DNA of 64,000 bases from Sipunculus nudus (Eukaryota > Annelida > Sipuncula > Golfingiida > Sipunculidae), in NCBI GenBank assembly GCA_026874595.1, contig CM049308.1, forward strand, positions 45,951,327-46,015,326, read 5' to 3'. Position numbers and translations under genes: made by a program. Shown in pieces: positions 19,039 to 64,000 of the stretch. Each line of letters opens with the position of its first letter. Position 1 is the first letter of the stretch. The notes under the pieces are model-generated. The model worked only from the letters and a program-made list of their open reading frames with translations. It made no database searches and was not told the DNA's origin.

Positions 19039-19053
19039 ACCAAGAAAAGACTA

Positions 19054-23470: not shown

Positions 23471-23535
23471 GGAACCTAATATCAACAGATCACGCAGTCG
23501 ATTACAAATTCTGTTATGGAGATAAAAAAATGATT

Positions 23536-25030: not shown

Positions 25031-25031
25031 G

Positions 25032-25881: not shown

Positions 25882-27003
25882 TTAAACAATTAACAGCAGT
25901 AACATTATGTACGACATCTGATGTTCTATATTAACATGGCACAGTTGTTTTTTCTGTTGCCTAAATGGTGTTAACAGTATGTAATTTAAATCACTGACTT
26001 TCTTGTCAACAATGTTAGGAACAAAATACCTAGCTTGCAGAGGTCTGCCAGGGATAGGTAGTAAGGCAAGGACCTTTTCACCAGGTTCAAACGTCCTGCT
26101 TACAGTGTGCTTGTCATACCTTGCCCTCATTTTACTTTGTGCAGATTTTAGATTAGACCTTGCAATCTCACAAGCATTGTGTAGTTTAGTGCGAAAGTCT
26201 GAGACATATTGCAAAAAAAATAGGGGAATCAGGATTTTCACACAAAAGTTTTTCGTAAAGCAGTTTCAATGGACCGTGAACTCCGTGTCCGAAAAGTAGT
26301 TCAAAGGGAACGAAACCCAAGGACTCTTGAAAGGATTCTTTGACAGCAAACAGCAATAGGTTGGATTCCTTCATCCCAGTCTTTCTATGGTCATAACAAT
26401 AAGTCCTAATCATGTTTTTAATGTTTGGTGAAAAACGCTCGAGGGCATCCTGACTTTCAGGATGGTATGGCGAAGAGCTGTACTGTTTTATACCAAGCTC
26501 AAGCATAACTCGCTTGAATATGCCAGACATAAAATAAGACCCTTGGTCAGACTGGACAGATTTCGGTAATCCAAAAGTTGTAAAAAAAACTTGGTCAGAG
26601 CCTTGACAACACTTTTGACATTAATTTTGCGCAATGGTATTGCCTCAGGGAACCTGGTAGATGCGCACATAATTGTCAGCAAGTATTAATGTCCAGATTT
26701 TGTTTTGGGCAGTGGTCCAACACAATCAACAATAAGCCTACTAAATGATTTCTCGAATGCAGGAATAGGATTATGTGGGGCTTCAGGAGGATTCTGATTG
26801 CCTGAGGTTAGGCCAATAGAAGTGTGTACTAACTTTCTGAGAAGTTTTATTTATACCAAAATGGCCAGACAAAGGAGCCTCATGTGTCATGCTTAGAACT
26901 TCTTTGCGAAAGGTTATGGGCATTACTATTTGATGTTTGATGGCCAACTCATGATCAGCGCATACATCAGGTGGTCACCATTTACGCATAAGCACTCAAT
27001 TTT
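25882..27003 (-). pseudogene. Unit 1, Gmr1-like integrase, reading into its native RT
   Basis: N-terminal HEAPLSGHFG gives the two His of the zinc site, but the Cys pair is missing: HFYWP is followed at once by the QNPPKAPLKP-type linker. The core includes LTIMCASTRFPEAIPL, QSDQG (second Asp) and HPESQDALERF (Glu). The C-terminus YVSDFRTKLHNACEIA, FEPGEKVLALLPIPGRPLQARYF ends NIEHQMSYIM. Unlike units 2-6, the codon after SD is TTA rather than a stop, so the C-terminus stays open into the RT linker. Private damage includes a stop in the KW-PPDV block near 26973 and a frameshift near 26590. Confidence 0.85.
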
Positions 27004-27303
27004 TGACATCGAAACAAACTGGGTTCTGTGACAGTTCATCTTTAAAAACTGCCTTGGGGACATTCATGAAATATCAGGGTCCTTATGCTGTCTGCGATAA
27101 GTTCTGACCTTGAAAATGCTGCATCCTGTACGTGCGAGTCGTTAGATGAGCCACTAGTGACTCCCTGAGTGTTATTTTCTGGACCATTTTCCTCATGTGT
27201 GTTTTCTTGGCCATAGATCTTGTTACAGCACATGAAGGATACAAACCAGGAATTTCCTGACTTTCAGGATCACTTTCCTGATTAAGTGACGGCTTTTCTG
27301 TCA

Positions 27304-27715
27304 CTATTGGAACAGGCTGTACTTTGTCACCTGCAACATCATGCCTAGCAGCAACTGAATTCCCTTAAAAGGTAAAGTAGTTCGTATGCCCACAGTAAAA
27401 TTTCTAGAAATCAAATCTGAATTTAAATGTGTACTGTGAAGCAGAACTGAAGTGTGCTTGACTGAAAACACACCATTAACAAGTGCATGTACACCAGTAA
27501 AAGACCTATTAGAAAATGGCATGTTTGCTAAAATAAGAGATTGGCCTGAACCATTGTCCCTCAAAATTCTAATAGGGGTAGAATCTGAAAAATCACTTGA
27601 AAGTGACAAAAAACCATCATGTATGAATGGCTCAAATAACTCCATTTCAGAGTCAGGAGAGGAATCTGCTACCTCAGTTTCATCCAAAAAAGAATTGACA
27701 CTGACAGTGTCAGGA
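27304..27715 (-). pseudogene. Unit 1, Gmr1-like protease region
   Basis: An acidic linker (ETEVADSSPDSEMELFEPF) leads to a retropepsin active site reading RDNGSGQSLIL, where family members have D-T/S-G. It continues to LNSDLISRNFTVGIRTTLPF and GIQLLLGMML, the block that follows the protease core in this family. Downstream toward integrase, PSCAVTRSMAKK is recognisable at about 27210-27240. DTG to DNG would probably disable the enzyme. Other units read DNGLS, DNGSS or DNSLS here. Confidence 0.75.
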
Positions 27716-27734
27716 TAAACTTTTTTTCAGAGCC

Positions 27735-28279
27735 ATTAAAGGAATCTACATACTTATTACAATCAAATTCTTCATGAGTGTCAACTTCTGTTTGTCATAA
27801 GAGGACCTGGCCTCATTTAAGATACTCTCGCAAAAGTCATAAAAGGACTTAGCTTTATTTAGAGGATACTCCTCGCAGGAGTCTTGAAAGGACCGAGCCT
27901 TATTACGTTCCTCGCAGGAATCAAATGAGGTTTTACCCCGCAAGCTACGAATTCTTCTTTGGATTCAGACGGCACGTTGGCCTCCGTAGCATAAAACTCT
28001 TTTTTTCAGAGTCAATAAAGGAGTTGTACCCCTTATTTAGATGAAAGAGACTGGCTCTTGTATTATGCTATGCATAGATTTTGAGACAAAACCAGAAGGT
28101 TTACGCCATGGTTTATTTGCAAGTTTCCAGCAGTCAGATATTAGATGACCTTTTTGCAGTAATTATAGATTTACTTTGAAAATGACTGGCCTTGGTTGGA
28201 TTCAGACGCAGTGGACGTGGACTCAGGTGTAGCAATGGACTTTGCTGAACTATCAGGACTACCCCAAGTTCCCCTACAG
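27735..28279 (-). pseudogene. Unit 1, Gmr1-like gag C-terminus with decayed zinc knuckle
   Basis: The minus strand encodes a Ser/Thr-rich stretch (SIATPESTSTASESNQ), then YNYCKK, a one-base gap, then GHLISDCWKL. This is a C-x2-C-x4-H-x4-C knuckle in which the first Cys is Tyr. Further on, three to four imperfect peptide repeats of the form KA(R/K)SF-DSCEE (about 27930-27800) are encoded by a ~45-bp DNA repeat before the acidic protease leader. Recognisable gag ends at about 28279, next to a pyrimidine-ag acceptor-like sequence. Confidence 0.65.
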
Positions 28280-29512
28280 ATAAAGATATAAATATTATAT
28301 GATGTGCTAATGCCTAGGCTGTTTTATCCTAGAGAGCCGCCTATTCTTAGTATATTTTCTACCTCATTTAACATTTCATAAAACGTATAGATAATTACAA
28401 GCATAAATAAATCCTTACAATAATAAAACAATGCAGATATTTAAAGCCCAACTTTTAAGAATACTGAAAAGCCCGCTCATCTTTTTGCAGCCCTAAAAAG
28501 TTCTTACCGAATTCTCAGGAAATTCTACATAGAATTACAGTAACTTCAGGTTGTATATCTCAGTTTATGAGACAAACTAATATATTCTAATAACTAATAT
28601 TTTTATATAATATAACTGCATAAATATTATCATAAACATATTTCAAATCTTACAAATAATACATACAGCTCGAATAACCATTCTAGTCACTATAAGTAAA
28701 ATAAAGGAACACTGCTGTACATAGGCACTGTACCCTACATACACCCCAAATCCCTCCTTTGTCTTATTTGAATTCAAATCATATATGTACCTAAATTGTT
28801 TTTGCACAACCTTGCCCTGTGACTCTTTGAACTGTACCCCTATGTGATACCGCTTCTCTCTGTCAGCCAAGCAGGCTTACATAATCCCACTACATAACAC
28901 CAGACCCTACAGCCTCCTGGGCTTATCCAAATATCACAGCCACATGCACCTGCCCGAGATTAATCCCTCAAGCATATACATTTACCTCCGTGAGATAAGC
29001 AATTTCTAAATCCCTCAACACTGTGGGTCGTTAGTAATTAATCACAGCCTGACTGATCTTACCAACAGACACACCTCACACCCTTTGCCTTTGGTATAAT
29101 TTAGCACACACACTATTTCAATTAAGACAGTTGTGCACTTACTCATAAACCATTTTCTCCAGCTGTTTTACTTGGCAGCCAATAGCCCCACACTATATAC
29201 ATATCCTTGACTGTAATGATTAATTGATCTAATAATCTGTTCCTAGGTAAGCGTTACACTATATCTTATTTCAATACACAGTCCTTGTCCATACTGATTA
29301 TACACCCCTCCCCTTCCCTCCTAGACCAACTGCCCTGTCGTGGCACATTCTTTATTTATTTCTTTCTTTTCTTCTGCGACTAGAAATCTTTACCAAGTCT
29401 CCCCCTCCCCCCACCCAAACTTACCTACAAACATCAAACAAAGTCACCACATCTGACAACACATTTTAACACCTACAGGTAATTAAATAATTAATTACCC
29501 TTGCCACATTTC
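28280..29512. other. Central spacer of unit 1, between divergent halves
   Basis: About 1.2 kb without a convincing gene, AT-rich on the left and pyrimidine-rich on the right (cccctccccttccctcc near 29309; ccccctcccccc near 29400). It recurs in every unit (35162-36399, 42048-43282, 48931-50166, 55810-57043, 62695-63929). By position it should hold the leader and possibly the LTR of the plus-strand element and the upstream part of the minus-strand element. I could not identify LTR ends or a primer-binding site. Confidence 0.6.
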
Positions 29513-30613
29513 ATGAGTGACTCTGATCACCATATACCTACTGACAGGGACGACTCTGATTCATACACTACTAGACTAGACGAGACTACGGCGTTAAATC
29601 TCTCTCGAGAATTTAACTGCCTACATATAACAGAACACAACATGACAAGCACAACTGAACAACTCACTCTAGCATTACAAGGGTCCACTAACACAAACAA
29701 ACTTGTCTCTCTCCAATCTAACCTTGAGAGAACAATTAGCAGAGTAGGCCAGTGTGCCTGCAGTAACCCAGGACAGATCAGGCATTATGCAGATCAGATC
29801 AAACAGGCGGCTATCGACCTGGGAAATGACGATAATCTTGTGAAGTCAGTGAATCTGTCCACTCTAGTGGGTATAGTCTCCAGATCTGTGGAATGTTTCT
29901 TGGCCAGAAAAACAACAACAGACAGTGAGGGCAAGTTTGCCCAAAATATCACTTGGCAGGAAATCATTCAACATATAAAATTTACCTTCCTGCCACCTGA
30001 TGACAATGGCTATCTAAAACAAAGACTGACCAAATTCCGACAGAGGCCAAATGTGACACTGGAGGAGCACAATGACACATTTATACAAATGGTTGTCGAC
30101 CTGTATGGCTCTAGCCCTCCTGCAGACAAAACTAAAGAAATTGTTGAGCATTACGCTCGCAGTCTAAGCAGTGCTGTTACTGCAAGGGCAGTCATAAAAT
30201 GTCAAGACATAGACCAGGCAATGCAAACAGCTAGAAACATGCTGCATGATGATCTTGCTTTCCAAAAATTGGGGAGAGACACTGACACAAGAGAAGAAAT
30301 CCCCATGGAAATAGATCTGATAAACAAACGCTTCCAAAATTTTGGCATCAGGAAGACACAAAATAGACAATACACTATCGTTAGACAGTCACAGAATAAA
30401 AGACCAGACTGCAGCTTTTGCTCCAAACTGGGTCACATACGGAGCCAGTGCTATGCCCTCAAGAGAATAAATTCACAGGGCCAACAAGCCCCACGGGCCC
30501 CTCAGAACCCCACTTGGGCTAAGACCCGCCACACCATATGCACAGACACAACCACAGCACAATACACAATAACCATCACGACAAACAAATGGACCCAGAC
30601 GGGGCTACACTGA
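29513..30613 (+). CDS. Unit 1, Ty3 gag, open frame (366 codons)
   Basis: The ATG at 29513 starts MSDSDHHIPT; the reading open from TTG at 29501 is not needed. The capsid-like region spans residues about 50-260 (ITWQEIIQHIKFTFLPPDD, LEEHNDTFIQMVVDLYG). One CCHC knuckle is C300-C303-H308-C313 (CSFCSKLGHIRSQC). This is the only unit in which gag is uninterrupted: codon 33 is GAA (stop elsewhere), the A-run after ARK is in frame, and codons 170-171 read CAA-AGA where the others have a stop. The 3' end differs from unit 4, whose frame reaches the protease overlap, so the last ~20 residues are probably shifted here. Confidence 0.7.
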   Translation: MSDSDHHIPTDRDDSDSYTTRLDETTALNLSREFNCLHITEHNMTSTTEQLTLALQGSTNTNKLVSLQSNLERTISRVGQCACSNPGQIRHYADQIKQAAIDLGNDDNLVKSVNLSTLVGIVSRSVECFLARKTTTDSEGKFAQNITWQEIIQHIKFTFLPPDDNGYLKQRLTKFRQRPNVTLEEHNDTFIQMVVDLYGSSPPADKTKEIVEHYARSLSSAVTARAVIKCQDIDQAMQTARNMLHDDLAFQKLGRDTDTREEIPMEIDLINKRFQNFGIRKTQNRQYTIVRQSQNKRPDCSFCSKLGHIRSQCYALKRINSQGQQAPRAPQNPTWAKTRHTICTDTTTAQYTITITTNKWTQTGLH

Positions 30614-30751
30614 TCAGTATGGGCGGCTGATTGAACCCATGGTCAGTCAGGTACAGCAGTCTAATGTACAAATTCACGCTGTGCAACCCAAGGAGCAGAA
30701 ATACCCTGACCCTCCTCAAGATATTCTGCATGAGGGATAAACATACAGCCT

Positions 30752-31183
30752 TAATCGATCAGGCGAACAGTCCCAAAATCATTTATACTTGTGAAAGCCG
30801 CATCACAGTATAAACACGGACGCCCCTTCATTAGACTACAATATGCCCAAGCAAGCCTAGAAGCTCTCATTGATACTGGGGCGGCTGTTTCGTTGATGCG
30901 GCATGACACCTTTATGGAATTAAATAAAATAAATAAAAACTTCACCCTCAATGTCCCTCCCCATGGCCTGCAGTCAGTCACAGGTAACAAACTCGTCTTT
31001 ACTGGCGTAACCTACATGCAATTCCTGCATCCTGACACTGCACTACGCCTCTGTGTGGTACCAGATTTTCCACATGACATTATTTTAGGGTGTGATGTCC
31101 TGAATAGGGGACATGCTACACTTGACCTTAAACAAAATATATTAACATGGTACAAACGCATGTTCAAGGTAAAACACGAATAA
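30752..31183 (+). CDS. Unit 1, Ty3 aspartic protease, -1 frame relative to gag
   Basis: The frame is open from just after a TAA near 30749 and contains LVKAASQYKHGRPF, then EALIDTGAAVSLM, with the retropepsin DTGA intact, and DFPHDIILGCDVL, the ILG motif of the C-terminal half. In units 2-4, gag runs to a TGA that overlaps this frame by about 40 bases in the -1 register, as expected if protease was made by -1 ribosomal frameshifting. It ends at TAA 31181-31183. This is one of the best preserved domains of the unit. Confidence 0.75.
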
Positions 31184-32797
31184 ATGGGAACACTATCAAA
31201 AATCTTCATCACACGGCCATGTTATGCTGATGCAGACCTGGATCATCACTTAGACAGTTCAGTGACGTATTCGCCTCATCTGAGGAAAAAATGTCTATTT
31301 CAAGTCTGCCGCCTCTAAAAGTCAGATCAAATGGAATGATCACATCCCTTCCCCCCATTTAGGGTTACCCTGGCAAAGAAAACGGTGCGCGAACAAGAAG
31401 TACAAAGACTACTTAAAGAAGGAATATTTAGGCCCAGTAGGTCACCCTATAGTAGTCCTGTGTCCCTTGTAAACAAACCGGATGATTCGGTGCGACTGGT
31501 AGTCGACTACCGGAAGGACATTCTGATAATTCAGGCAGACAAGTTCCCTCTTCCACGCTTGGCTGACACTTTTGATGACTTACGGGGAGCCAAGGTTTTT
31601 CCACCCTCGATTTGAAGTCAGGGTACCATCAATTAGCTATGCACCCGGACAGCATACCCTTACAGCAATGGCGACACTTAGTGGACTATATGAGTTTGTC
31701 CGATGCCCATTCGGGCTCTCAGTAGCGCCCCTCTTCAAAAGAGCCATAAGCTGGGCCCTTAAAGAGGCTCTGCTAGACAATTGTGCCCGTGTCTATATAG
31801 ATGACATTGTTGTTTTTAGTAAAAGCAGAGAGGAACATGTCCGACACTTGCAAAAGGTATTTCGTTGCCTTAAACAATACAACCTTAAACTCAAGGCCTC
31901 AAAATGCAATTTTGCAAAACCAGCTGTGAAACTGCTAGGCCACATCATATAAGCAAAAGGGAAGCTGCCTGACCCCGAAAAGACTGAAGCCATAAGAAAC
32001 ATGGGTGTACCCAAAAATGTTAGGGGTGTCCGCAGTCTGTTAAGCAGCTGTGGGTTTTACAGGCAATTTGTAAAAAACTATGCCGAAATTGCAGCCCCGC
32101 TGGTGGCACTGACAAAGAAACATGCTAAGTTTCACTTGGGACCAAAGCATGAAGCTGCTTTCCAAAAACTGGAAGACCTGCTAGTTTTACCTCAGCTAAT
32201 GGCCTACCCAAACCCTGTAAAGCCATATCACCTATACACCGAGGCTTCAAATGTAGCAGTAGGTGCTGCCCTAGTCCAACTAGACGAGAATAACACAAAG
32301 ATAGTTATTGAGTATGTGTCACACACACTTAACCCAGCCCAGAGTAATTACTCAACCATAGAGCGTGAAGGTCTAGCTGTCATGGTGGCACTGACAAAGC
32401 TTAGGCATTACCTGCTTGGTAGCGAGTTCACATTCTATACTGACCACAGACCTTTACAATGTTTGTTTACCTCCAAAATAAACAACACAAGGATACAGCG
32501 CTGGGCACTTACACTGCAGAGTTCAACCCGAAAATTGTGTATAAGAAAGGCTCCTTGAACATAAAGGCAGATATGTTATCAAGATTGCAAAATTCCATGC
32601 AGATACCACCAGTGCCGGAGCCACCAGTCATCGCTTGTGTCTTCCCAGGAGCAGTAGATTTGGTAGACCTGGAGGAGGATAGTGAAGCTGAGGATTTTAT
32701 TCCAGTTACAGCACGTCATGTATATGATGACATAGACCTTGAAGCCATTATTGAAGCCCAAACACTACATTCCCCACTCATAATGTACGACATCTGA
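31184..32797 (+). pseudogene. Unit 1, Ty3 RT-RNase H, integrase missing
   Basis: RT landmarks: FSDVFASSEE near 31258, RVTLAKKTVREQEV, GIFRPSRSPYSSPVSL, then a T5 run causing a frameshift inside VFSTLDLKSGYHQ, a second frameshift before MATLSGLYEFVRCPFGL, a one-codon deletion (APLFKR) and YIDDIVVFS. A TAA follows LLGHII (31950-31952). RNase H has YTEASNVAVGAAL (Glu where Asp is usual), TIEREGLAV, YTDHRPL and, after a frameshift, IKADMLSRL. It ends IMYDI-stop across the junction, so no integrase is left. Confidence 0.85.
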
Positions 32798-35161
32798 TGT
32801 TCTATGTTAACATGGCACAGTTGTTTTTTCTTGTGCCTATCTGGTGTTAACAGTATGTAATTTTAATCACTGGCTTTCTTGTCAACAATGTTAGGACCAA
32901 AATACCTAGCTTGCAGAGGTCTGCCAGGGATAGGTAGTAAGGCAAGGACCTTTTCACCAGGCTCAAACGTCCTGCTTACAGTGTGCTTGTCATACTTTGC
33001 CCTCATTTTACTTTGTGCAGATTTTAGATTAGACCTTGCAATCTCACAAGCATTGTGTAGTTTAGTGCGAAAGTCTGAGACATATTGCAAAAAACTAAGA
33101 GAATCAGGATTTTCACACAAAAGTTTTTCGTAAAGCAGTTTCAATGGACCGTGAACTCCGTGTCCGAAAACTAGTTCAAAGGGACTGAAACCCAAGGACT
33201 CTTGAAAGGATTCTTTGACAGCAAACAGCAATAGGTTGGATTCCTTCATCCCAGTCTTTCTATGGTCATAACAATAAGTCCTAATCATGTTTTTAATGTT
33301 TGGTGAAAAACGCTCGAGGGCTTCCTGACTTTCAGGATGGTATGGCGAAGAGCTGTACTGTTTTATACCAAGCTCAAGCATAACTTGCTGGAATATGCCA
33401 GACATAAAATAAAACCCTTGGTCAGACTGGACAGATTTCGGTAATCCAAAAGTTGTTAAAAAACTTGGTCAGAGCCTTGACAACTTTTTTTATATTAATT
33501 TTGCGCAATGGTATTGCCTCAGGGAACCTGGTAGATGCGCACATAATTGTCAGCAAGTATTCATGTCCAGATTTTGTTTTGGGCAGTGGTCCAACACAAT
33601 CAACAATAAGCCTACTAAATGGTTTCTTGAATGCAGGAATAGGCTTAAGTGGGGCTTTAGGAGGATTCTGACTGCCTGAGGCTAGGCCAATAGAAGTGTG
33701 TACTAACTTTCTGAGAAGTTTTATTTATACCTAAATGGCCAGACAAAGGAGCCTCATGTGCCATGCTTAGAACTTCTTTGCGAAAGATTATGGGCATTAC
33801 TATTTGATGTTTGATGGCCCACTCATCATCAGCGCATACATCAGGTGGTCGCCATTTACGCATAAGCACTCAATTTTTGACATCGAAACAAACTGGGTTC
33901 TGTGACAGTTCATCTTTAAAAACTGCCTTGGGAAACATACATGAAATATCAGGGTCCTTATGCTGTCTGCGATAAGTTCTGACCTTGAAAATGCTGCATC
34001 CTGTACGGGCGAGTCGTTAGATGAGCCACTAGTGACTCCCAGAGTGTTATTGTCTGGACCATTTTCCTCATGCGTGTTTTCTTGGCCATAGATCTTGTTA
34101 CAGCACATGAAGGATACAAACCAGGAATTTCCTGACTTTCAGGATCACTTTCCTGATTAAGTGACGGCTTTTCTGTCACTATTGGTACAGGCTGTACTTT
34201 GTCACCTGCAACATCATGCCTAGCAGCAACTGAATTCCCTTAAAAGGTAAAGTAGTTCTTATGCCCACAGTAAAATTCCCAGAAATCAAATCTGAATTTA
34301 AATGTGTACTGTGAAGCAGAACTGAAGTGTGCTTGTCTGAAAACACACCATTAACAAGTGCATGTGCACCTGTAAAAGACCTATTAGAAAATGGCAAAGT
34401 GTTTGCTAAAATGAGAGTTTGGCTTAAACCATTGTCTCTCAAAATTCTAATAGGGATAGAATCTGAAAAATCACTTGAAAGTGACAAAAAAACATCATGT
34501 ATGAATGGCTCAAATAACTCCATTTCAGAGTCAGGAGAGGAATCTGCTACCTCAGTTTCATCCAAAAAAGAACTGACACTGACAGTGTCAGGCATAAACT
34601 CTTTTTCAGAGCCATTAAAGGAATCTATATCCTTATTAGAATCAAATTCTTCATGGGAGTCATCTTCTGTTTGTCATAAGAGGACCTGGCCTCATTTAAG
34701 ATACTCTCGCAAGAGTCATAAAAGGACTTAGCTTTATTAAGAGGTGCTCCTCGCAGGAGTCTTGAAAGGACCGAGCCTTATTACGTTCCTCGCAGGAATC
34801 AAATGAGGTTTTTACCCCGCAAGCTACGAATTCTTCTTTGGATTGAGACGGCACGTTAGCCTCCGTAGCATAAAACTCTTTTTTTTTCAGAGTCAATAAA
34901 GGAGTGGTACCCCTTATTTACATGAAAGAGACTGGCTCTTTTACTATGCTATACATAGATTTTGAGACAAAAACCAGAAGGTTTACGCTATGGTTTATTT
35001 GCAAGTTTCCAGCAGTCAGATATTAGATGACCTTTTTGCAGTAATTATAGATTTACTTTGAAAATGACTGGCCTTGGTTGGATTCAGACGCAGTGGACGT
35101 GGACTGAGGTGTAGCAATGGACTTTGCTGAACTATCAGGACTACCCCAAGTTCCCCTACAG
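32784..35161 (-). pseudogene. Unit 2, Gmr1-like gag end, protease and integrase
   Basis: The integrase core-to-C-terminus is one open frame of 180 codons (33405-32863), the longest in the array, including HPESQEALERF (catalytic Glu), SPFELVFGHGVHGP and KVLALLPIPG. It stops at TAA right after KKASD, where unit 1 has TTA. The second catalytic Asp is readable just upstream as QSDQG, and the first as IVDCVGPLP near 33600; a frameshift in the KFF region (near 33470) and loss of the Cys pair of the zinc site are shared with other units. The protease active site reads RDNGLSQTL (34595-34179). Confidence 0.85.
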
Positions 35162-36399
35162 ATAAAGATATAAATATTATATGATGTGCTAATGCCTAAG
35201 CTGTTTTATCCTAGAGAGCCGCCTATTCTTAGTATATTTTGTACCTCATTTAACATTTCATAAAACGTATAGATAATTACAAGCATAAATAAATCCTTAC
35301 AATAATAAAACAATGCAGGTATTTAAAGCCCAACTTTTAAGAATACTGAAAAGCCCGCTCATCTTTTGCAGCCCTAAAAAGTTCTATCTGAATTCTCAGG
35401 AAATTCTTCATAGAATTACAGTAACTTCAGGTTGTATATCTCAGTTTATGAGACAAACTAATATATTCTAATAATTAATATTTTTATATAATATAACTGC
35501 ATATATTTTATCATAAACATATTTCAAATCTTACAAATAATACATACAGCTCGTATAACCATTCTAGTCACTATAAGTAAAATAAAGGAACACTGGTGTA
35601 CATAGGCACTGTACCCTACATACACCCCAAATCCTTCCCTTTGTCTTATTTGAATTCAAATCATATATGTACCTAAATTGTTTTTGCACAACCTTGCCCT
35701 GTGACTCTTTGAACTGTACCCCTATGTGATACCGCTTCTCTCTGTCAGCCAAGCAGGCTTACATAATCCCACTACATAACACCAGGCCCTACAGCCTCCT
35801 GGGCTTATCCAAATATCACAGCCACATGCACCTGCCCGAGATTAATCCCTCAAGCATATACATTTACCTCCGTGAGATAAGCAATTTCTAAATCCCTCAA
35901 CACTGTGGGTCGTTAGTAATTAATCACAGCCTGACTGATCTTACCAACAGACACACCTCACACCCTTTGCCTTTGGTATAATTTAGCACACACACTATTT
36001 CAATTAAGACAGTTGTGCACTTACTCATAAACCATTTTCTCTAGCTGTTTTACTTGGCAGCCAATAGCCCCACACTACATACATATCCTTGACTGTAATG
36101 ATTAATTGATCTAATAATCTGTTCCTAGGTAAGCGTTACACTATATCTTATTTCAATACACAGTCCTTGTCCATACTGATTATACACCCCTCCCCTTCCC
36201 TCCTAGACCAACTGCCCATGTCGTGGCACATTCTTTATTTCTTTCTTTCTTTTCTTCTGCGAATAGAAATCTTTACCAAGTCCCCCCCCCCCTCCCCCCA
36301 CCCAAACTTACCTACAAACATCAAACAAAGTCACCACATCTGACAACACATTTTAACACCTACAGGTAATTAAATAATTAATTACCCTTGCCACATTTC

Positions 36400-37678
36400 A
36401 TGAGTGACTCTGATCACCATATACCTACTGACAGTGACGACTCTGATTCATACACTACTAGACTAGACGAGACTACGGCGTTAAATCTCTCTCGATAATT
36501 TAACTGCCTACATATAACAGAACACAACATGACGAGCACAACTGAACAACTCACTCTAGCATTACAAGGGTCCACTAACACAAACAAACTTGTCTCTCTC
36601 CAATCTAACCTTGAGAGAACAATTAGCAGAGTAGGCCAGTGTGCCTGCAGTAACCCAGGACAGATCAGGCATTATGCAGATCAGATCAAACAGGCGGCTA
36701 TCGACCTGGGAAATGACGATAATCTTGTGAAGTCAGTGATTCTGTCCACTCTAGTGGGTATAGTCTCCAGATCTGTGGAATGTTTCTTGGCCAGAAAAAA
36801 ACAACAACAGACAGTGAGGGCAAGTTTGCCCAAAATATCACTTGGCAGGAAATCATTCAACATATAAAATTTACCTTCCTGCCACCTGATGACAATGACT
36901 ATCTAAAACATTGACTGACCAAATTCCGACAGAGGCCAAATGTGACACTGGAGGAGCACAATGACACATTTATACAAATGGTTGTCGACCTGTATGGCTC
37001 TAGCCCTCCTGCAGACAAAACTAAAGAAATTGTTGAGCATTACGCTCGCAGTCTAAGCAGTGCTGTTACTGCAAGGGCAGTCATAAATGTCAAGACATAG
37101 ACCAGGCAATGCAAACAGCTAGAAACATGCTGCATGATGATCTTGCTTTCCAAAAATTGGGGAGAGACACTGACACAAGAGAAGAAATCCCCATGGAAAT
37201 AGATCTGATAAACAAACGCTTCCAAAATGTTGGCATCAGGAAGACACAAAATAGACAATACACTAACACTAGACAGTCACAGAATAAAAGACCAGACTGC
37301 AGCTTTTGCTCCAAACTGGGTCACATACGGAGCCAGTGCTATGCCCTCATGAGAATAAATTCACAGGGCCAACAAGCCCCACGGGCCGCTCAGAACTCCA
37401 CTTGGGCTAGAAACCCGCCACACCATATGCACAGACACAACCACAGCACAATACACAATTACCATCACGACAAACAAATGGACCCAGACGGGGCAACACT
37501 GATCAGTATGGGCGGCAGATTGAACCCATGGTCAGTCAGGTACAGCAATGTACAAATTCACGCTGTGCAACCCAAGGAGCAGAAATACCCTGACCCTCCT
37601 CAAGATATTCTGCATGAGGGATACACATACAGCCTTAATCGATCAGGCGAACAGTCCCAAAATCATTTATACTTGTGA
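36400..37678 (+). pseudogene. Unit 2, Ty3 gag with stop and frameshifts
   Basis: Starts MSDSDH at 36400, but codon 33 is TAA. A longer A-run after ARK shifts the frame (ARKKQQQ), the LK-H codon is followed by TGA, and one A is lost in gtcataaatgtc. From 37109 the C-terminal frame is open through the CCHC knuckle to TGA at 37676-37678, overlapping protease in the -1 register. Confidence 0.85.
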
Positions 37679-51444: not shown

Positions 51445-53452
51445 AAGCCGCATCACGGTATAAACACGGACGCCCCTTCATTAGACTACAATATGCCCAA
51501 GCAAGCCTAGAAGCTCTCATTGATACTGGGGCGGCTGTTTCGTTGATGCGGCATGACACCTTTATGGAATTAAATAAAATAAATAAAAACTTCACCCTCA
51601 ATGTCCCTCCCCATGGCCTGCAGTCAGTCACAGGTAACAAACTCGTCGTTACTGGCGTAACCTACATGCAATACCTGCATCCTGACACTGCACTACGCCT
51701 CTGTGTGGTACCAGATTTTCCACATGACATTATTTTAGGGTGTGATGTCCTGAATAGGGGACATGCTACACTTGACCTTAAACAAAATATATTAACATGG
51801 TACAAACGCATGTTCAAGGTAAAACACGAATAAATGGGAACACTATCAAAAATCTTCATCACACGACCATGTTATGCTGATGCAGACCTGGATCATCACT
51901 TAGACAGTTCAGTGACGTATTCGCCTCAACTGAGGAAAAAAATGTCTATTTCAAGTCTGCCGCCTCTAAAAGTCAGATCAAATGGAATGATCACATCCCT
52001 TCCCCCCATTTAGGGTTACCCTGGCAAAGAAAACGGTGCGCGAACAAGAAGTACAAAGACTACTTAAAGAAGGAATATTTAGGCCCAGTAGGTCACCCTA
52101 TAGTAGTCCTGTGTCCCTTGTAAACAAACCGGATGATTCGGTGCGACTGGTAGTCGACTACCGGAAGGACATTCTGATAATTCAGGCAGACAAGTTCCCT
52201 CTCCCACGCTTGGCTGACACTTTTGATGACTTACGGGGAGCCAAGGTTTTTTCCACCCTCGATTTGAAGTCAGGGTACCATCAATTAGCTATGCACCCGG
52301 ACAGCATACCCTTACAGCAATGGCGACACCTAGTGGACTATATGAGTTTGTCCGATGCCCATTCGGGCTCTCAGTAGCGCCCTCTGCATTCAAAAGAGCC
52401 ATAAGCTGGGCCCTTAAAGAGGCTCTGCTAGACAATTGTGCCCGTGTCTATATAGATGACATTGTTGTTTTTAGTAAAAGCAGAGAGGAACATGTCCAAC
52501 ACTTGCAAAAGGTATTTCGTTGCCTTAAACAATACAACCTTAAACTCAAGGCCTCAAAATGCAATTTTGCAAAACCAGCAGTAAAACTGCTAGGCCACAT
52601 CATAGAAGCAGAAGGGAAGCTGCCTGACCCCGAAAAGACTGAAGCCATAAGAAACATGGGTGCACCCAAAAATGTTAGGGGTGTCCGCAGTCTGCTAAGC
52701 AGCTGTGGGTTTTACAGGCAATTTGTAAAAAACTATGCCGAAATTGCAGCCCCGCTGGTGGCACTGACAAAGAAACATGCTAAGTTTTACTGGGGACCAA
52801 AGCATGAAGATGCTTTCCAAAAACTGAAAGACCTGCTAGTCTCACCTCAGCTAATGGCCTACCCAGACCCTGCAAAGCCAAATCACCTATACACCGCGGC
52901 TTCGAATGTAGCAGTAGGTGCTGTCCTAGTCCAACTAGACGAGAATAACACAAAGATAGTTATTGAGTATGTGTCACACACACTTAACCCAGCCCAGAGT
53001 AATTACTCAACCATAGAGCTTGAAGGTCTAGCTGTCATGCTGGCACTGACAAAGCTTAGGTATTACCTGCTTGGTAGCGAGTTCACACTCTATACTGACC
53101 ACAGACCTTTGCAATGTGTGTTTACCTCCAAAATAAACAACACAAGGGTACAGCGCTGGGCACTTACACTGCAGAGTTCAACCCGAAAATTGTGTATAAG
53201 AAAGACTCCTTGAACATAAAGGCAGATATGTTATCAAGATTGTAAAATTCCAAGCAGTTACTACCAGTGCCGGAGCCACCAGTCATCGCTTGTGTCTTCC
53301 CAGGAGCAGTAGATTTGGTAGACCTGGAGGAGGATAGTGAAGCTGAGGATTTAATTCCAGTTACAGCACGTCATGTATATGATGACATAGACCTTGAAGC
53401 CATTATTGAAGCCCAAACACTACATTTCCCACTCATAATGTACGACATCTGA
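51402..53452 (+). pseudogene. Unit 4, Ty3 protease-RT-RNase H, best preserved pol
   Basis: Protease is open with DTGA. Uniquely, a T6 run keeps the frame through VFSTLDLKSGYHQLAMHPD (52036-52377). The shared frameshift follows, then one frame of 297 codons (52320-53213) covers CPFGLSVAPSAF, YIDDI (residues 44-47), LLGHIIEAEGKL without the stop seen in other units, the connection and most of RNase H. The first RNase H acid is Ala (YTAASN, residue 193); YTDHRPL is intact. A TAA in DMLSRL-stop (near 53243) is shared with unit 5. Confidence 0.87.
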
Positions 53453-55809
53453 TGTTCTATGTTAACATGGCACAGTTGTTTTTTCTTGTGCTTATCTGGT
53501 GTTAACAGTATGTAATTTTAATCACTGGCTTTTTTGTCAACAATGTTAGGACCAAAATACCTAGCTTGCAGAGGTCTGCCAGGGATAGGTAGTAAGGCAA
53601 GGACCTTTTCACCAGGCTCAAACGTCCTGATAACAGTGTGCTTGTCATACTTTGCCCTCATTTTACTTTGTGCAGATTTTAGATTAGACCTTGCAATCTC
53701 ACAAGCATTGTGTAGTTTAGTGCGAAAGTCTGAGACATATTGCAAAAAACTAAGAGAATCAGGATTTTCACACAAAAGTTTTTCGTAAAGCAGTTTCAAT
53801 GGACCATGAAATCAGCTTCCGAAAAGTAGTTCAAAGGGACTGAAACCCAAGGACTCTTGAAAGGATTCTTTGACAGCAAACAGCAATAGGTTGGATTCCT
53901 TCATCCCAGTCTTTCTATGGTCATAACAATAAGTCCTAATCATGTTTTTAATGTTTGGTGAAAAACGCTCGAGGGCTTCCTGACTTTCAGGATGGTATGG
54001 CGAAGAGTATTGTTTTATACCAAGCTCAAGCATAACTTGCTGGAATATGCCAGACATAAAATAAAACCCTTGGTCAGACTGGACAGATTTCGGTAATCCA
54101 AAAGTTGTAAAAAAAACTTGGTCAGAGCCTTGACAACTTTTTTTACATTAATTTTGCGCAATGGTATTGCCTCAGGGAACCTGGTAGATGCGCACATAAT
54201 TGTCAGCAAGTATTCATGTCCAGATTTTGCTTTGGGCAGTGGTCCAACACAATCAACAATAAGCCTACTAAATGGTTTCTCGAATGCAAGAATAGGCTGA
54301 AGTGGGGCTTTAGGAGGATTCTGATTGCCTGAGGTTAGGCCAATAGAAGTGTGTACTAACTTTCTGAGAAGTTTTATTTATACCTAAATGGCCAGACAAA
54401 GGAGCCTCATGTGCCATGCTTAGAACTTCTTTGCGAAAGATTATGGGCATTACTATTTGATGTTTGATGGCCCACTCATCATCAGCGCATACATCAGGTG
54501 GTCGCCATTTACGCATAAGCACTCATTTTTTGACATCGAAACAAACTGGGGTCTGTGACAGTTCATCTTTAAAAACTGCCTTGGGAAACATACATGAAAT
54601 ATCAGGGTCCTTATGCTGTCTGCGATAAGTTCTGACCTTGAAAATGCTGCATCCTGTACGGGCGAGTCGTTAGATGAGCCACTAGTGACTCCCAGAGTGT
54701 TATTGTCTGGACCATTTTCCTCATGTGTGTTTTCTTGGCCATAGATCTTGTTACAGCACATGAAGGATACAAACAGGAATTTCCTGACTTTCAGGATCAC
54801 TTTCCTGATTAAGTGACGGCTTTTCTGTCACTATTGGTACAGGCTGTACTTTGTCACCAGCAACATCATGCCTAGCAGCAACTGAATTCCCTTAAAAGGT
54901 AAAGTAGTTCTTATGCCCACAGTAAAATTCCCAGAAATCAAATCTGAATTTAAATGTGTACTGTGAAGCAGAACTGTAGTGTGCTTGTCTGAAAACACAC
55001 CATTAACAAGTGCATGTGCACCAGTAAAAGACCTATTAGAAAATGGCAAAGTGTTTGCTAAAATGAGAGTTTGGCTTAAACTATTGTCTCTCAAAATTCT
55101 AATAAGGGTAGAATCTGAAAAATCACTTGAAAGTGACAAAAAACCATCATGTATGAATGGCTCAAATAACTCCATTTCAGAGTCAGGAGAGGAATCTGCT
55201 ACCTCAGTTTCATCCAAAAAAGAACTGACACTGACAGTGTCAGGCATAAACTCTTTTCAGAGCCATTAAAGGAATCTATATCCTTATTACAATCAAATTC
55301 TTCATGGGAGTCAACTTCTGTTTGTCATAAGAGGACCTGGCCTCATTTAAGATATTCTCGCAAGAGTCATAAAAGGACTTAGTTTTATTCAGAGGTGCTC
55401 CTCGCAGGAGTCTTGAAAGGACCGAGCCTTATTACGTTCCTCGCAGGAATCAAATGAGGTTTTTACCCCGCAAGCTACGAATTCTTCTTTGGATTCAGAC
55501 GGCACGTTAGCCTTCGTAGCATAAAACTCTTTTTTTCAGAGTCAATAAAGGAGTGGTACCCCTTATTTACATGAAAGAGACTGGCTCTTTTACTATGCTA
55601 TACATAGATTTTGAGACAAAACCAGAAGGTTTACGCTATGGTTTATTTGCAAGTTTCCAGCAGTCAGATATTAGATGACCTTTTTGCAGTAATTATAGAT
55701 TTACTTTGAAAATGACTGGCCTTGGTTGGATTCAGACGCAGTGGACGTGGACTGAGGTGTAGCAATGGACTTTGCTGAACTATCAGGACTACCCCAAGTT
55801 CCCCTACAG
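53439..55809 (-). pseudogene. Unit 5, Gmr1-like gag end, protease and integrase
   Basis: Integrase is split into 54057-53812 and 53799-53518. A three-base deletion removes one Ser of KQYSSSPYHPE, and the FGH-VHGP region is altered by private changes near 53806-53820. The protease active site reads RDNSLSQTL, so the Gly of D-x-G is also lost, shared with unit 6. One base is missing near 54774 (aaacaggaat), shifting the linker frame. Confidence 0.85.
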
Positions 55810-57043
55810 ATAAAGATATAAATAGTATATGATGTGCTAATGCCTAAGCTGTTTTATCCTAGAGAGCCGCCTATTCTTAGTATATTTTCTACCTCATTTA
55901 ACATTTCATAAAACGTATAGATAATTACAAGCATAAATAAATCCTTACAATAATAAAACAATGCAGGTATTTAAAGCCCAACTTTTAAGAATACTGAAAA
56001 GCCCGCTCATCTTTTGCAGCCCTAAAAAGTTCTAACCGAATTCTCAGGAAATTCTTCATAGAATTACAGTAACTTCAGGTTGTATATCTCAGTTTATGAG
56101 ACAAACTAATATATTCTAATAACTAATATTTTTATATAATATAACTGCATATATATTATCATAAACATATTTCAAATCTTACAAATAATACATACAGCTC
56201 GTATAACCATTCTAGTCACTATAAGTAAAATAAAGGAACACTGGTGTACATAGGCACTGTACCCTACATACACCCCAAATCCCTCCCTTTGTCTTATTTG
56301 AATTCAAATCATATGTGTACCTAAATTGTTTTTGCACAAACCTTGCCCTGTGACTCTTTGAACTGTACCCCTATGTGATACCGCTTCTCTCTGTCAGCCA
56401 AGCAGGCTTGCATAATCCCACTACATAACACCAGACCCTACAGCCTCTTGGGCTTATCCAAATATCACAGCCACATGCACCTGCCCGAGATTAATCCCTC
56501 AAGCATATACATTTACCTCAGTGAGATAAGCAATTTCTACATCCCTCAACACTGTGGGTCGTTAGTAATTAATCACAGCCTGACTGATCTTACCAACAGA
56601 CACACCTCACACCCTTTGCCTTTGGTATTATTTAGCACACACACTATTTCAATTAAGACAGTTGTGCACTTACTCATAAACCATTTTCTCCAGCTGTTTT
56701 ACTTGGCAGCCAATAGCCCCACACTACATACATATCCTTGACTGTAATGATTAATTGATCTAATAATCTGTTCCTAGGTAAGCGTTACACTATATCTTAT
56801 TTCAATACACAGTCCTTGTCCATACTGATTATACACCCCTCCCCTTCCCTCCTAGACCAACTGCCCTGTCGTGGCACATTCTTTATTTATTTCTTTCTTT
56901 TCTTCTGCGACTATAAATCTTTACCAAGTCCCCCCCCCCCTCCACCCAAACTTACCTACAAACATCAAACAAAGTCACCACATCTGACAACACATTTTAA
57001 CACCTACAGGTAATTAAATAATTAATTACCCTTGCCACATTTC

Positions 57044-58147
57044 ATGAGTGACTCTGATCACCATATACCTACTGACAGTGACGACTCTGATTCATACACT
57101 ACTAGACTAGACGAGACTACGGCGTTAAATCTCTCTCGATAATTTAACTGCCTACATATAACAGAACACAACATGACGAGCACAACTGAACAACTCACTC
57201 TAGCATTACAAGGGTCCACTAACACAAACAAACTTGTCTCTCTCCAATCTAACCTTGAGAGAACAATTAGCAGAGTAGGCCAGTGTGCCTGCAGTAACCC
57301 AGGACAGATCAGGCATTATGCAGATCAGATCAAACAGGCGGCTATCGACCTGGGAAATGACGATAATCTTGTGAAGTCAGTGATTCTGTCCACTCTAGTG
57401 GGTAGAGTCTCCAGATCTGTGGAATGTTTCTTGGCCAGAAAAAAAACAACAACAGACAGTGAGGGCAAGTTTGCCCAAAATATCACTTGGCAGGAAATCA
57501 TTCAACATATAAAATTTACCTTCCTGCCACCTGATGACAATGACTATCTAAAACATTGACTGACCAAATTCCGACAGAGGCCAAATGTGACACTGGAGGA
57601 GCACAATGACACATTTATACAAATGGTTGTCGACCTGTATGGCTCTAGCCCTCCTGCAGACAAAACTAAAGAAATTGTTGAGCATTACGCTCGCAGTCTA
57701 AGCAGTGCTGTTACTGCAAGGGCAGTCATAAAATGTCAAGACATAGACCAGGCAATGCAAACAGCTAGAAACATGCTGCATGATGATCTTGCTTTCCAAA
57801 AATTGGGGAGAGACACTGACACAAGAGAAGAAACCCCCATGGAAATAGATCTGATAAACAAACGCTTCCAAAATTTTGGCATCAGGAAGACACAAAATAG
57901 ACAATACACTAACACTAGACAGTCACAGAATAAAAGACCAGACTGCAGCTTTTGTTCCAAACTGGGTCACATACGGAGCCAGTGCTATGCCCTCAAGAGA
58001 ATAAATTCACAGGGCCAACAAGCCCCACGGGCCCCTCAGAACCCCACTTGGGCTAAGACCCGCCACACCATATGCACAGACACAACCACAGCACAATACA
58101 CAATTACCATCACGACAAACAAATGGACCCAGACGGGGCTACACTGA
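57044..58147 (+). pseudogene. Unit 5, Ty3 gag with two stops
   Basis: Same codon-33 TAA and TGA after DYLKH as unit 4, with the A-run in frame. The second part (57587-58147) has the CCHC knuckle and ends at the same shifted C-terminus as unit 1 (KWTQTGLH). Confidence 0.85.
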
Positions 58148-58285
58148 TCAGTATGGGCGGCAGATTGAACCCATGGTCAGTCAGGTACAGCAGTCTAATG
58201 TACAAATTCACGCTGTGCAACCCAAGGAGCAGAAATACCCTGACCCTCCTCAAGATATTCTGCATGAGGGATACACATACAGCCT

Positions 58286-60334
58286 TAATCGATCAGGCGA
58301 ACAGTCCCAAAATCATTTATACTTGTGAAAGCCGCATCACAGTATAAACACGGACGCCCCTTCATTAGACTACAATATGCCCAAGCAAGCCTAGAAGCTC
58401 TCATTGATACTGGGGCGGCTGTTTCGTTGATGCGGCATGACACCTTTATGGAATTAAATAAAATAAATAAAAACTTCACCCTCAATGTCCCTCCCCATGG
58501 CCTGCAGTCAGTCACAGGTAACAAACTCGTCGTTACTGGCGTAACCTACATGCAATTCCTGCATCCTGACACTGCACTACGCCTCTGTGTGGTACCAGAT
58601 TTTCCACATGACATTATTTTAGGGTGTGATGTCCTGAATAGGGGACATGTTACACTTGACCTTAAACAAAATATATTAACATGGTACAAACGCATGTTCA
58701 AGGTAAAACACGAATAAATGGGAACACTATCAAAAATCTTCATCACACGGCCATGTTATGCTGATGCAGACCTGGATCATCACTTAGACAGTTCAGTGAC
58801 GTATTCGCCTCATCTGAGGAAAAAATGTCTATTTCAAGTCTGCCGCCTCTAAAAGTCAGATCAAATGGAATGATCACATCCCTTCCCCACATTTAGGGTT
58901 ACCCTGGCAAAGAAAACGGTGCGCGAACAAGAAGTACAAAGACTACTTAAAGAAGGAATATTTAGGCCCAGTAGGTCACCCTATAGTAGTCCTGTGTCCC
59001 TTGTAAACAAACCGGATGATTCGGTGCGACTGGTAGTCGACTACCGGAAGGACATTCTGATAATTCAGGCAGACAAGTTCCCTCTCCCACGCTTGGCTGA
59101 CACTTCTGATGACTTACAGGGAGCCAAGGTTTTTCCACCCTCGATTTGAAGTCAGGGTACCATCAATTAGCTATGCACCCGGACAGCATACCCTTACAGC
59201 AATGGCGACACCTAGTGGACTATATGAGTTTGTCCGATGCCCATTCGGGTTCTCAGTAGCGCCCTCTGCATTCAAAAGAGCCATAAGCTGGGCCCTTAAA
59301 GAGGCTCTGCTAGACAATTGTGCCCGTGTCTATATAGATGACATTGTTGTTTTTAGTAAAAGCAGAGAGGAACATGTCCAACACTTGCAAAAGGTATTTC
59401 GTTGCCTTAAACAATACAACCTTAAACTCAAGGCCTCAAAATGCAATTTTGCAAAACCAGCAGTAAAACTGCTAGGCCACATCATATAAGCAGAAGGGAA
59501 GCTGCCTGACCCCGAAAAGACTGAAGCCATAAGAAACATGGGTGCACCCAAAAATGTTAGGGGTGTCCGCAGTCTGCTAAGCAGCTGTGGGTTTTACAGG
59601 CAATTTGTAAAAAACTATGCCGAAATTGCAGCCCCGCTGGTGGCACTGACAAAGAAACATGCTAAGTTTTACTGGGGACCAAAGCATGAAGATGCTTTCC
59701 AAAAACTGAAAGACCTGCTAGTCTCACCTCAGCTAATGGCCTACCCAGACCCTGCAAAGCCATATCACCTATACACCGCGGCTTCGAATGTAGCAGTAGG
59801 TGCTGTCCTAGTCCAACTAGACGAGAATAACACAAAGATAGTTATTGAGTATGTGTCACACACACTTAACCCAGCCCAGAGTAATTACTCAACCATAGAG
59901 CTTGAAGGTCTAGCTGTCATGCTGGCACTGACAAAGCTTAGGCATTACCTGCTTGGTAGCGAGTTCACACTCTATACTGACCACAGACCTTTGCAATGTG
60001 TGTTTACCTCCAAAATAAACAACACAAGGGTACAGCGCTGGGCACTTACACTGCAGAGTTCAACCCGAAAATTGTGTATAAGAAAGACTCCTTGAACATA
60101 AAGGCAGATATGTTATCAAGATTGTAAAATTCCAAGCAGTTACTACCAGTGCCGGAGCCACCAGTCATCGCTTGTGTCTTCCCAGGAGCAGTAGATTTGG
60201 TAGACCTGGAGGAGGATAGTGAAGCTGAGGATTTAATTCCAGTTACAGCACGTCATGTATATGATGACATAGACCTTGAAGCCATTATTGAAGCCCAAAC
60301 ACTACATTTCCCACTCATAATGTACGACATCTGA
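58286..60334 (+). pseudogene. Unit 5, Ty3 protease-RT-RNase H
   Basis: Protease is open to 58717. RT has the T5 frameshift near 59130, CPFGFSVAPSAF, YIDDI, and TAA after LLGHII (59487-59489). RNase H (59538-60095) has YTAASNVAVGAVL (Asp to Ala, as unit 4), TIELEGLAVMLAL and YTDHRPLQCV. The frame ends MYDI-stop at the junction. Confidence 0.85.
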
Positions 60335-62694
60335 TGTTCTATGTTAACATGGCACAGTTGTTTTTTCTTGTGCTTATCTGGTGTTAACAGTATGTAATTT
60401 TAATCACTGGCTTTTTTGTCAACAATGTTAGGACCAAAATACCTAGCTTGCAGAGGTCTGCCAGGGATAGGTAGTAAGGCAAGGACCTTTTCACCAGGCT
60501 CAAACGTCCTGCTTACAGTGTGCTTGTCATACTTTGCCCTCATTTTACTTTGTGCAGATTTTAGATTAGACCTTGCAATCTCACAAGCATTGTGTAGTTT
60601 AGTGCGAAAGTCTGAGACATATTGCAAAAAACTAAGAGAATCAGGATTTTCACACAAAAGTTTTTCGTAAAGCAGTTTCAATGGACCATGAACTCAGCGT
60701 CCGAAAAGTAGTTCAAAGGGACTGAAACCCAAGGACTCTTGAAAGGATTCTTTGACAGCAAACAGCAATAGGTTGGATTCCTTCATCCCAGTCTTTCTAT
60801 GGTCATAACAATAAGTCCTAATCATGTTTTTAATGTTTGGTGAAAAACGCTCGAGGGCTTCCTGACTTTCAGGATGGTATGGCGAAGAGCTGTACTGTTT
60901 TATACCAAGCTCAAGCATAACTTGCTGGAATATGCCAGACATAAAATAAAACCCTTGGTCAGACTGGACAGATTTCGGTAATCCAAAAGTTGTAAAAAAA
61001 ACTTGGTCAGAGCCTTGACAACTTTTTTTACATTAATTTTGCGCAATGGTATTGCCTCAGGGAACCTGGTAGATGCGCACATAATTGTCAGCAAGTATTC
61101 ATGTCCAGATTTTGTTTTGGGCAGTGGTCCAACACAATCAACAATAAGCCTACTAAATGGTTTTCGAATGCAAGAATAGGCTGAAGTGGGGCTTTAGGAG
61201 GATTCTGATTGCCTGAGGTTAGGCCAATAGAAGTGTGTACTAACTTTCTGAGAAGTTTTATTTATACCTAAATGGCCAGACAAAGGAGCCTCATGTGCCA
61301 TGCTTAGAACTTCTTTGCGAAAGATTATGGGCATTACTATTTGATGTTTGATGGCCCACTCATCATCAGCGCATACATCAGGTGGTCGCCATTTACGCAT
61401 AAGCACTCATTTTTTGACATCGAAACAAACTGGGTTCTGTGACAGTTCATCTTTAAAAACTGCCTTGGGAAACATACATGAAATATCAGGGTCCTTATGC
61501 TGTCTGCGATAAGTTCTGACCTTGAAAATGCTGCATCCTGTACGGGCGAGTCGTTAGATGAGCCACTAGTGACTCCCAGAGTGTTATTGTCTGGACCATT
61601 TTCCTCATGTGTGTTTTCTTGGCCATAGATCTTGTTACAGCACATGAAGGATACAAACCAGGAATTTCCTGACTTTCAGGATCACTTTCCTGATTAAGTG
61701 ACGGCTTTTCTGTCACTATTGGTACAGGCTGTACTTTGTCACCAGCAACATCATGCCTAGCAGCAACTGAATTCCCTTAAAAGGTAAAGTAGTTCTTATG
61801 CCCACAGTAAAATTCCCAGAAATCAAATCTGAATTTAAATGTGTACTGTGAAGCAGAACTGTAGTGTGCTTGTCTGAAAACACACCATTAACAAGTGCAT
61901 GTGCACCAGTAAAAGACCTATTAGAAAATGGCAAAGTGTTTGCTAAAATGAGAGTTTGGCTTAAACTATTGTCTCTCAAAATTCTAATAAGGGTAGAATC
62001 TGAAAAATCACTTGAAAGTGACAAAAAACCATCATGTATGAATGGCTCAAATAACTCCATTTCAGAGTCAGGAGAGGAATCTGCTACCTCAGTTTCATCC
62101 AAAAAAGAACTGACACTGACAGTGTCAGGCATAAACTCTTTTCAGAGCCATTAAAGGAATCTATATCCTTATTACAATCAAATTCTTCATGGGAGTCAAC
62201 TTCTGTTTGTCATAAGAGGACCTGGCCTCATTTAAGATATTCTCGCAAGAGTCATAAAAGGACTTAGTTTTATTCAGAGGTGCTCCTCGCAGGAGTCTTG
62301 AAAGGACCCAGCCTTATTACGTTCCTCGCAGGAATCAAATGAGGTTTTTACCCCGCAAGCTACGAATTCTTCTTTGGATTCAGACGGCACGTTAGCCTTC
62401 GTAGCATAAAACTCTTTTTTTCAGAGTCAATAAAGGAGTGGTACCCCTTATTTACATGAAAGAGACTGGCTCTTTTACTATGCTATACATAGATTTTGAG
62501 ACAAAACCAGAAGGTTTACGCTATGGTTTATTTGCAAGTTTCCAGCAGTCAGATATTAGATGACCTTTTTGCAGTAATTATAGATTTACTTTGAAAATGA
62601 CTGGCCTTGGTTGGATTCAGACGCAGTGGACGTGGACTGAGGTGTAGCAATGGACTTTGCTGAACTATCAGGACTACCCCAAGTTCCCCTACAG
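60321..62694 (-). pseudogene. Unit 6, Gmr1-like gag end, protease and integrase
   Basis: Integrase pieces 60942-60694 and 60681-60400 flank a stop in the FGR-VHGP region. The catalytic Glu segment SSSPYHPESQEALERF is complete here, so the Ser deletion in unit 5 is private to that unit. The protease (62132-61716) reads RDNSLSQTL as in unit 5. Confidence 0.85.
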
Positions 62695-63929
62695 ATAAAG
62701 ATATAAATATTATATGATGTGCTAATGCCTAAGCTGTTTTATCCTAGAGAGCCGCCTATTCTTAGTATATTTTGTACCTCATTTAACATTTCATAAAACG
62801 TATAGATAATTACAAGCATAAATAAATCCTTACAATAATAAAACAATGCAGGTATTTAAAGCCCAACTTTTAAGAATACTGAAAAGCCCGCTCATCTTTT
62901 GCAGCCCTAAAAAGTTCTAACCGAATTCTCAGGAAATTCTTCATAGAATTACAGTAACTTCAGGTTGTATATCTCAGTTTATGAGACAAACTAATATATT
63001 CTAATAACTAATATTTTTATATAATATAACTGCATATATATTATCATAAACATATTTCAAATCTTACAAATAATACATACAGCTCGTATAACCATTCTAG
63101 TCACTATAAGTAAAATAAAGGAACACTGGTGTACATAGGCACTGTACCCTACATACACCCCAAATCCCTCCCTTTGTCTTATTTGAATTCAAATCATATG
63201 TGTACCTAAATTGTTTTTGCACAACCTTGCCCTGTGACTCTTTGAACTGTACCCCTATGTGATACCGCTTCTCTCTGTCAGCCAAGCAGGCTTACATAAT
63301 CCCACTACATAACACCAGACCCTACAGCCTCCTGGGCTTATCCAAATATCACAGCCACATGCACCTGCCCGAGATTAATCCCTCAAGCATATACATTTAC
63401 CTCCGTGAGATAAGCAATTTCTACATCCCTAAACACTGTGGGTCGTTAGTAATTAATCACAGCCTGACTGATCTTACCAACAGACACACCTCACACCCTT
63501 TGCCTTTGGTATAATTTAGCACACACACTATTTCAATTAAGACAGTTGTGCACTTACTCATAAACCATTTTCTCCAGCTGTTTTACTTGGCAGCCAATAG
63601 CCCCACACTACATACATATCCTTGACTGTAATGATTAATTGATCTAATAATCTGTTCCTAGGTAAGCGTTACACTATATCTTATTTCAATACACAGTCCT
63701 TGTCCATACTGATTATACACCCCTCCCCTTCCCTCCTAGACCAACTGCCCTGTCGTGGCACATTCTTTATTTATTTCTTTCTTTTCTTCTGCGACTATAA
63801 ATCTTTACCAAGTCCTCCCCCCCCCCTCCACCCAAACTTACCTACAAACATCAAACAAAGTCACCACATCTGACAACACATTTTAACACCTACAGGTAAT
63901 TAAATAATTAATTACCCTTGCCACATTTC

Positions 63930-64000
63930 ATGAGTGACTCTGATCACCATATACCTACTGACAGTGACGACTCTGATTCATACACTACTAGACTAGACGA
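63930..64000 (+). pseudogene. Unit 6, start of Ty3 gag
   Basis: ATG at 63930 opening MSDSDHHIPTDSDDSD; the window ends before codon 33, so the diagnostic stop cannot be scored. Confidence 0.7.

Follow-up and report, generated by a model that had tools for sequence, protein, structure and literature searches.

The genome of Sipunculus nudus contains a tandem array, probably real, in which a unit of about 6.88 kb, built from parts of two Ty3-type retroelements on opposite strands, is present in seven head-to-tail copies. A dead retroelement locus very probably gave rise to it in four steps, by passive tandem duplication at the site itself and without element-encoded activity. The window, that is the whole stretch of 64,000 nucleotides analysed, corresponds to C3:45951327-46015326 of a 1.43-Gb genome, and the next 200 kb rightward were also examined. 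Positions without a prefix are counted from the window start.

The array and its unit

A landmark sequence recurs on the plus strand of the window at 25908, 32784, 39671, 46553, 53439 and 60321, the six positions listed by the sequence-only reading, and has no occurrence on the minus strand of the window. The array leaves the window, as had been proposed; its extent is corrected from six landmarks to seven units. Comparison with single-copy paralogs moves the left edge to 25904, 4 bases ahead of the landmark. The array ends at C3:46024189, 8,863 bases (8.86 kb) beyond the window, for a total of 46.96 kb. On the plus strand, unit 1 (25904-32779), which forms the left edge and is diverged, is followed by unit 2 (32780-39666), unit 3 (39667-46548), unit 4 (46549-53434), unit 5 (53435-60316) and unit 6 (60317-64000), the last being cut by the window end and extending to about C3:46018527. 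Unit 7 follows outside the window, up to the array end, and has two internal deletions, at unit positions ~2637-3530 and ~4370-4684. Against window positions 39671-46553, full-length identity is 97.4-99.2% for units 1, 2, 4 and 5; for unit 6 it is 98.6% over the in-window part. This likeness is far above chance.

As seen in unit 3, the unit consists of a minus-strand segment of one element, termed B (39671-42030), and a plus-strand segment of another, termed A (42029-46548). Segment A comprises a gag region, protease, reverse transcriptase (RT) and RNase H. In the domain scan, RVP, RVT_1 and RT_RNaseH all exceeded their cut-offs, and the gag region weakly matched a C2H2 zinc finger. On the minus strand, one of the five frames scanned gave a weak match to rve, an integrase core fragment, at 40044-40355 (22.7 bits, under the cut-off of 32.6), and the remaining four gave no domain match. 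The same weak minus-strand match is found in unit 1 (25.3 bits) and unit 2 (20.5 bits), under the cut-off in both cases. The reading of two Ty3-type elements on opposite strands, of which one has Gmr1-type gene order, is retained; the minus-strand gag and protease that went with it were not confirmed, as four of the five frames are blank. Gag-pol appears broken within the in-window array, because its longest stop-to-stop frame is only 372 amino acids (among frames of at least 180 amino acids). Longer frames than this are present in relatives of A. No LTR of A or B was found inside the unit or at either array edge.

Elsewhere in the window, a 334-bp tandem repeat occupies 1-1490 and 4735-5090 (3.8 copies at 1-1261, with diverged copies nearby) and reaches the window's left end. 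A third Ty3-type element lies on the minus strand at 17044-20974; its gene order runs from gag through RT and RNase H to integrase, and it has one stop-to-stop frame of 668 amino acids.

Elements A and B past the array edges and at their fusion

Both elements run on outside the array into single-copy flanks, since RT and RNase H (left, minus strand) and integrase (right, plus strand) flank the array. The continuation of B at 24406-25806 holds RT pieces at 25032-25806 and RNase H at 24406-24657, and an LTR-like region, also on the minus strand, is located on B's 3' side at 23451-24102 (limits approximate). On the right, Integrase_H2C2 and rve were both matched above cut-off on the plus strand. 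In an env-bearing Ty3 element, an envelope frame would be expected downstream of integrase; one frame in this flank (L010:463-1068) resembles Baculo_F weakly (E 1.2e-4; 21.3 bits against a cut-off of 24.1), and the two frames that follow it (L010:1069-2118 and 2096-2374) have no domain match.

With a 1700-base query over the left edge in B, 40 of 43 rows from the best 40 of 2060 candidates run through the edge; 37 of them are outside the array locus, one passing the edge by only ~20 bases. At the right edge in A, 32 of 42 rows from the best 40 of 74 candidates run through, including 28 outside the array locus (8 at 92-95%, 20 at 76-84%). Units 1-6 end at this edge, and the remaining 4 rows fall on one side of it. 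As many B relatives are longer over the left query by some tens of bases, and relatives in another comparison start 21 bases in, this copy of B probably carries a small indel near the left edge, common to the single-copy paralogs S1 and S3 described below.

The order of genes in B places integrase upstream of RT: the weak rve match of units 1-3 is followed by RVT_1 and RT_RNaseH, which lie in the left flank and likewise on the minus strand. This boundary is continuous in the 37 rows elsewhere (best 40 of 2060 candidates). Integrase upstream of RT is the Gmr1 order, according to an excerpt of PMC6238403. By gene order, B would belong to the Gmr1-type Ty3 elements, and A is classed as Ty3-type. 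Troyka, as described in an excerpt of PMC12440569, was set aside for A, as A's LTR reads TG..CA.

B and A are joined 5'-to-5' at 42029-42030 with an overlap of 2 bp (AC). When 2000 bases with the fusion at 459/460 were used as query, the fusion was spanned by 10 of the 42 rows from the best 40 of 1627 candidates, all at C3:45.98-46.18 Mb. B relatives stop at 459-460 in 23 rows, A relatives start at 459 in 7, and 2 rows lie wholly on one side. Past the fusion point, four B relatives (L036-L039) and five A copies (L031-L035, two from one dimer) diverge, with AC in common. The A family begins 680-685 bases beyond this point with an LTR of 437 bases (TGTAGC..CTACA), which recurs on the right at 77843-78279. 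Three of the four B relatives have LTR-like homology to 23451-24102, ~0.8-1.2 kb upstream of the fusion point, and the fourth has none within the 2.6 kb examined. Because relatives extend further out, with LTR or LTR-like sequence, both elements lost their 5' ends, including the 5' LTRs, at the fusion. The unit had been taken for a fused element; it is instead a slice through a rearranged locus, both elements extending past its edges and relatives crossing both.

The A-family dimer consists of tandem copies at C3:58843500-58857499 (L031, L032), with a period of ~9.88 kb; the 3.2 kb seen twice is 99.9% identical. Such a dimer (9.88-kb period, C3:58.84-58.857 Mb) would be in line with unequal LTR-to-LTR recombination between neighbouring elements, as in the tandem elements sharing an LTR that are described in an excerpt of PMC12628747. 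For the array this route has next to no likelihood, as no LTR of A or B was found in the unit, and the array edges lie at integrase/RT and RNase H/integrase boundaries with an overlap of 1 bp.

Single-copy paralogs and the tandem joint

Three nearby paralogs hold one copy each: S1 (C3:46077910-46084807, minus strand), S2 (C3:46125301-46132105, left end cut) and S3 (C3:46172860-46179760). Counted from the array end, single-copy paralogs within the array's flanks lie 54 and 149 kb further on. The left flank of the array (..GCAGTAACATTA) is present in S1 and S3 and the right flank (CTGAAA..) in S1, S2 and S3. Judged by these shared flanks, S1-S3 are taken to be segmental duplicates. They are carried by segmental duplications, direct and inverted, of 7-23 kb and 97-99% identity at C3:46064-46191 kb. 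S1-S3 might partly represent haplotypes that ended up in a single contig; S1, however, is inverted. The B/A fusion is also present in all three. The fusion preceded the array, which is a later tandem duplication in place.

The tandem joint between units 1 and 2 (32775-32787, plus strand) is composed of CACTC, ATAA and TGTA, and recurs ahead of each of units 3 to 6. It reads CCCACTC-ATAA-TGTACG at five places and CCCACTC-ATTA-TGTACG, like the left flank, at the sixth, which is outside the window. The overlap is a single C (1 bp), and no longer homology was found in the 600-base surroundings of the S3 breakpoints (local score of 17, versus a mean of 13.2 and a maximum of 21 in 200 shuffles). Six of the 41 rows from the best 40 of 1498 candidates span the joint, all in the array. 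A genome search for the junction had been suggested by the sequence-only reading; among the best 40 of 1498 candidates for the tandem joint and of 1627 for the fusion, neither was found elsewhere, a scope that does not prove absence elsewhere.

That the three single copies share the right limit, and two of them the left limit, could be expected if the unit were a chimeric mobile element, or if a concatemer produced by rolling circle or as an extrachromosomal circle had been inserted. However, the single copies sit in the array's own flanks, there is no LTR at either edge, and the edges are inside elements that are continuous elsewhere. The fusion, moreover, was seen only at C3:45.98-46.18 Mb (best 40 of 1627 candidates), and no LTR-bounded unit dispersed with new flanks was found at the locus or among the best-scored candidates. 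A mobile unit or an inserted concatemer is considered extremely unlikely.

Two other tandem repeats were noted in the region. A satellite with a period of ~77 bp and a GGGTTAGGGTAACCC-like motif is located at C3:46035515-46039268 and at five more places up to C3:46190738. A BLAST comparison also showed a tandem pair of ~2.97 kb with 100% identity at C3:46157016-46162952, which is either very recent or an assembly fault.

History of the array and comparison with known arrays

From U1-U2 to U6-U7, neighbouring units are 2.02, 0.70, 1.06, 1.15, 0.55 and 1.63% apart. Differences between any two units amount to 0.55-2.92%, with 38-165 substitutions and 3-23 indel events per pair; the closest unit is always a neighbour, and no higher-order repeat pattern was found in the unit distances. 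The units differ from the S copies by 2.77-3.26%, and the S copies among themselves by 0.60-0.63%. Over alignment columns 0-5700, the fewest differences are seen for U5-U6 (18) and U2-U3 (24), with 73 for U4-U5. Over columns 6200-6949, U4-U5 (2) and U1-U2 (10) are closest, with 16 differences for U5-U6 and 19 for U2-U3. Columns 5700-6200, the transition, were omitted from this contrast. The closest partners switch register by one unit, as unequal crossing-over that copied a block over a unit border would give; the second switch (U1-U2 10 versus U2-U3 19) is weaker than the first.

The array would be an artefact if a single real copy, or fewer copies than seven, had been inflated by the assembler. 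The copy number is taken from one assembly, the S copies, being 0.6% apart, could be haplotypes, and the same region contains the exact 2.97-kb tandem pair. Against this, every pair of units is separated by the substitutions and indels given above, the identity of the closest partner shifts along the unit, unit 7 carries deletions of its own, and no flank lies between adjoining units. Inflation by the assembler is thus very unlikely, and tandem duplication at the locus is the preferred explanation.

The timing of this duplication was examined in the A part with an A-relative outgroup, at sites fixed within groups. Derived states were counted at 25 sites in U1-U6 and 37 in the S copies, with 3 three-state sites; when U7 was added, the counts were 12, 25 and 2, respectively. 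When polarised S-derived sites were sorted by sharing, 25 of 35 were in no unit and 10 in some unit. As 25 of the 35 are absent from all units, a duplication after the split from the S copies, with some exchange or recurrent change, is favoured by these sites. In the A-part tree, the units group together (99/98), as do the S copies (100/100), and the forks among units 1-6 are not separated.

The proposed course of events would begin with the joining of B (minus strand) and A (plus strand), 5'-to-5', with loss of both 5' LTRs; the joint observed may have resulted from breakage and end-joining. The fused locus would then have been copied by segmental duplication within ~160 kb of chromosome C3, where the copies are found. 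In a third step, one of the copies would have undergone head-to-tail duplication of a 6.88-kb slice stretching between B's integrase/RT boundary and A's RNase H/integrase boundary; the joint of this duplication, with 1 bp of overlap, may stem from end-joining or replication-based repair. Finally, unequal crossing-over would have produced seven units and homogenised the inner ones, as suggested by the register switch and the diverged edge units. Most likely, the array has no function. There is a slender chance that it is kept as a transcribed source of small RNA, in which case readthrough of the opposite-direction pieces would yield antisense RNA against A-family or B-family copies.

The sequence-only reading held the unit to be unusual and not a standard structure. 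Arrays of mixed elements are nevertheless already known. According to an excerpt of PMC2588610, human megasatellites of transposable elements are kb-scale and include above all MaLR 'LTR arrays', which combine MSTA and THE-1 fragments in both orientations (4-25 units listed), are embedded in segmental duplications and are altered by unequal crossing-over. The MaLR unit is 3.5 kb, with 25 arrays on 9 chromosomes and higher-order repeats, and other human megasatellites, of 5.4 and ~6 kb, mix several kinds of elements (PMC2588610). The present array likewise has a kb-scale tandem unit made of LTR element fragments in both orientations, lies among segmental duplications and bears marks of unequal crossing-over. 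It differs from the MaLR arrays in its elements, in the single-copy state preserved nearby, and in that one array was found (joint search, best 40 of 1498 candidates), showing no higher-order repeat. On this comparison it is of the same kind as the human megasatellites, combining known things.

In yeast CUP1 arrays, an excerpt of PMC4232551 reports that a single-copy slice was duplicated by nonhomologous joining with at most 3 bp of homology, the copy number then being open to unequal crossing-over and the single-copy state being known. The near-homology-free joint and the known single-copy state are common to both systems; CUP1 is a host gene, whereas retroelement remains with broken frames are involved here. 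In retrotransposon-derived satellites, a piece of an element becomes the tandem unit, by way of internal short arrays, shared LTRs or pieces of one element (excerpts of PMC6947457, PMC12628747 and PMC7004042). Here, in contrast, a 6.9-kb slice runs across two elements. The literature searched yielded no array derived from an env-bearing Ty3 element together with a Gmr1-type one, which is weak evidence only.

The array leaves the known picture unchanged but illustrates clearly, step by step, how a satellite is born. Within ~200 kb, the internal exchange tracts, both joints and the unduplicated state are all preserved, so that the steps by which element remains became a young tandem repeat of kb scale can be placed in order.
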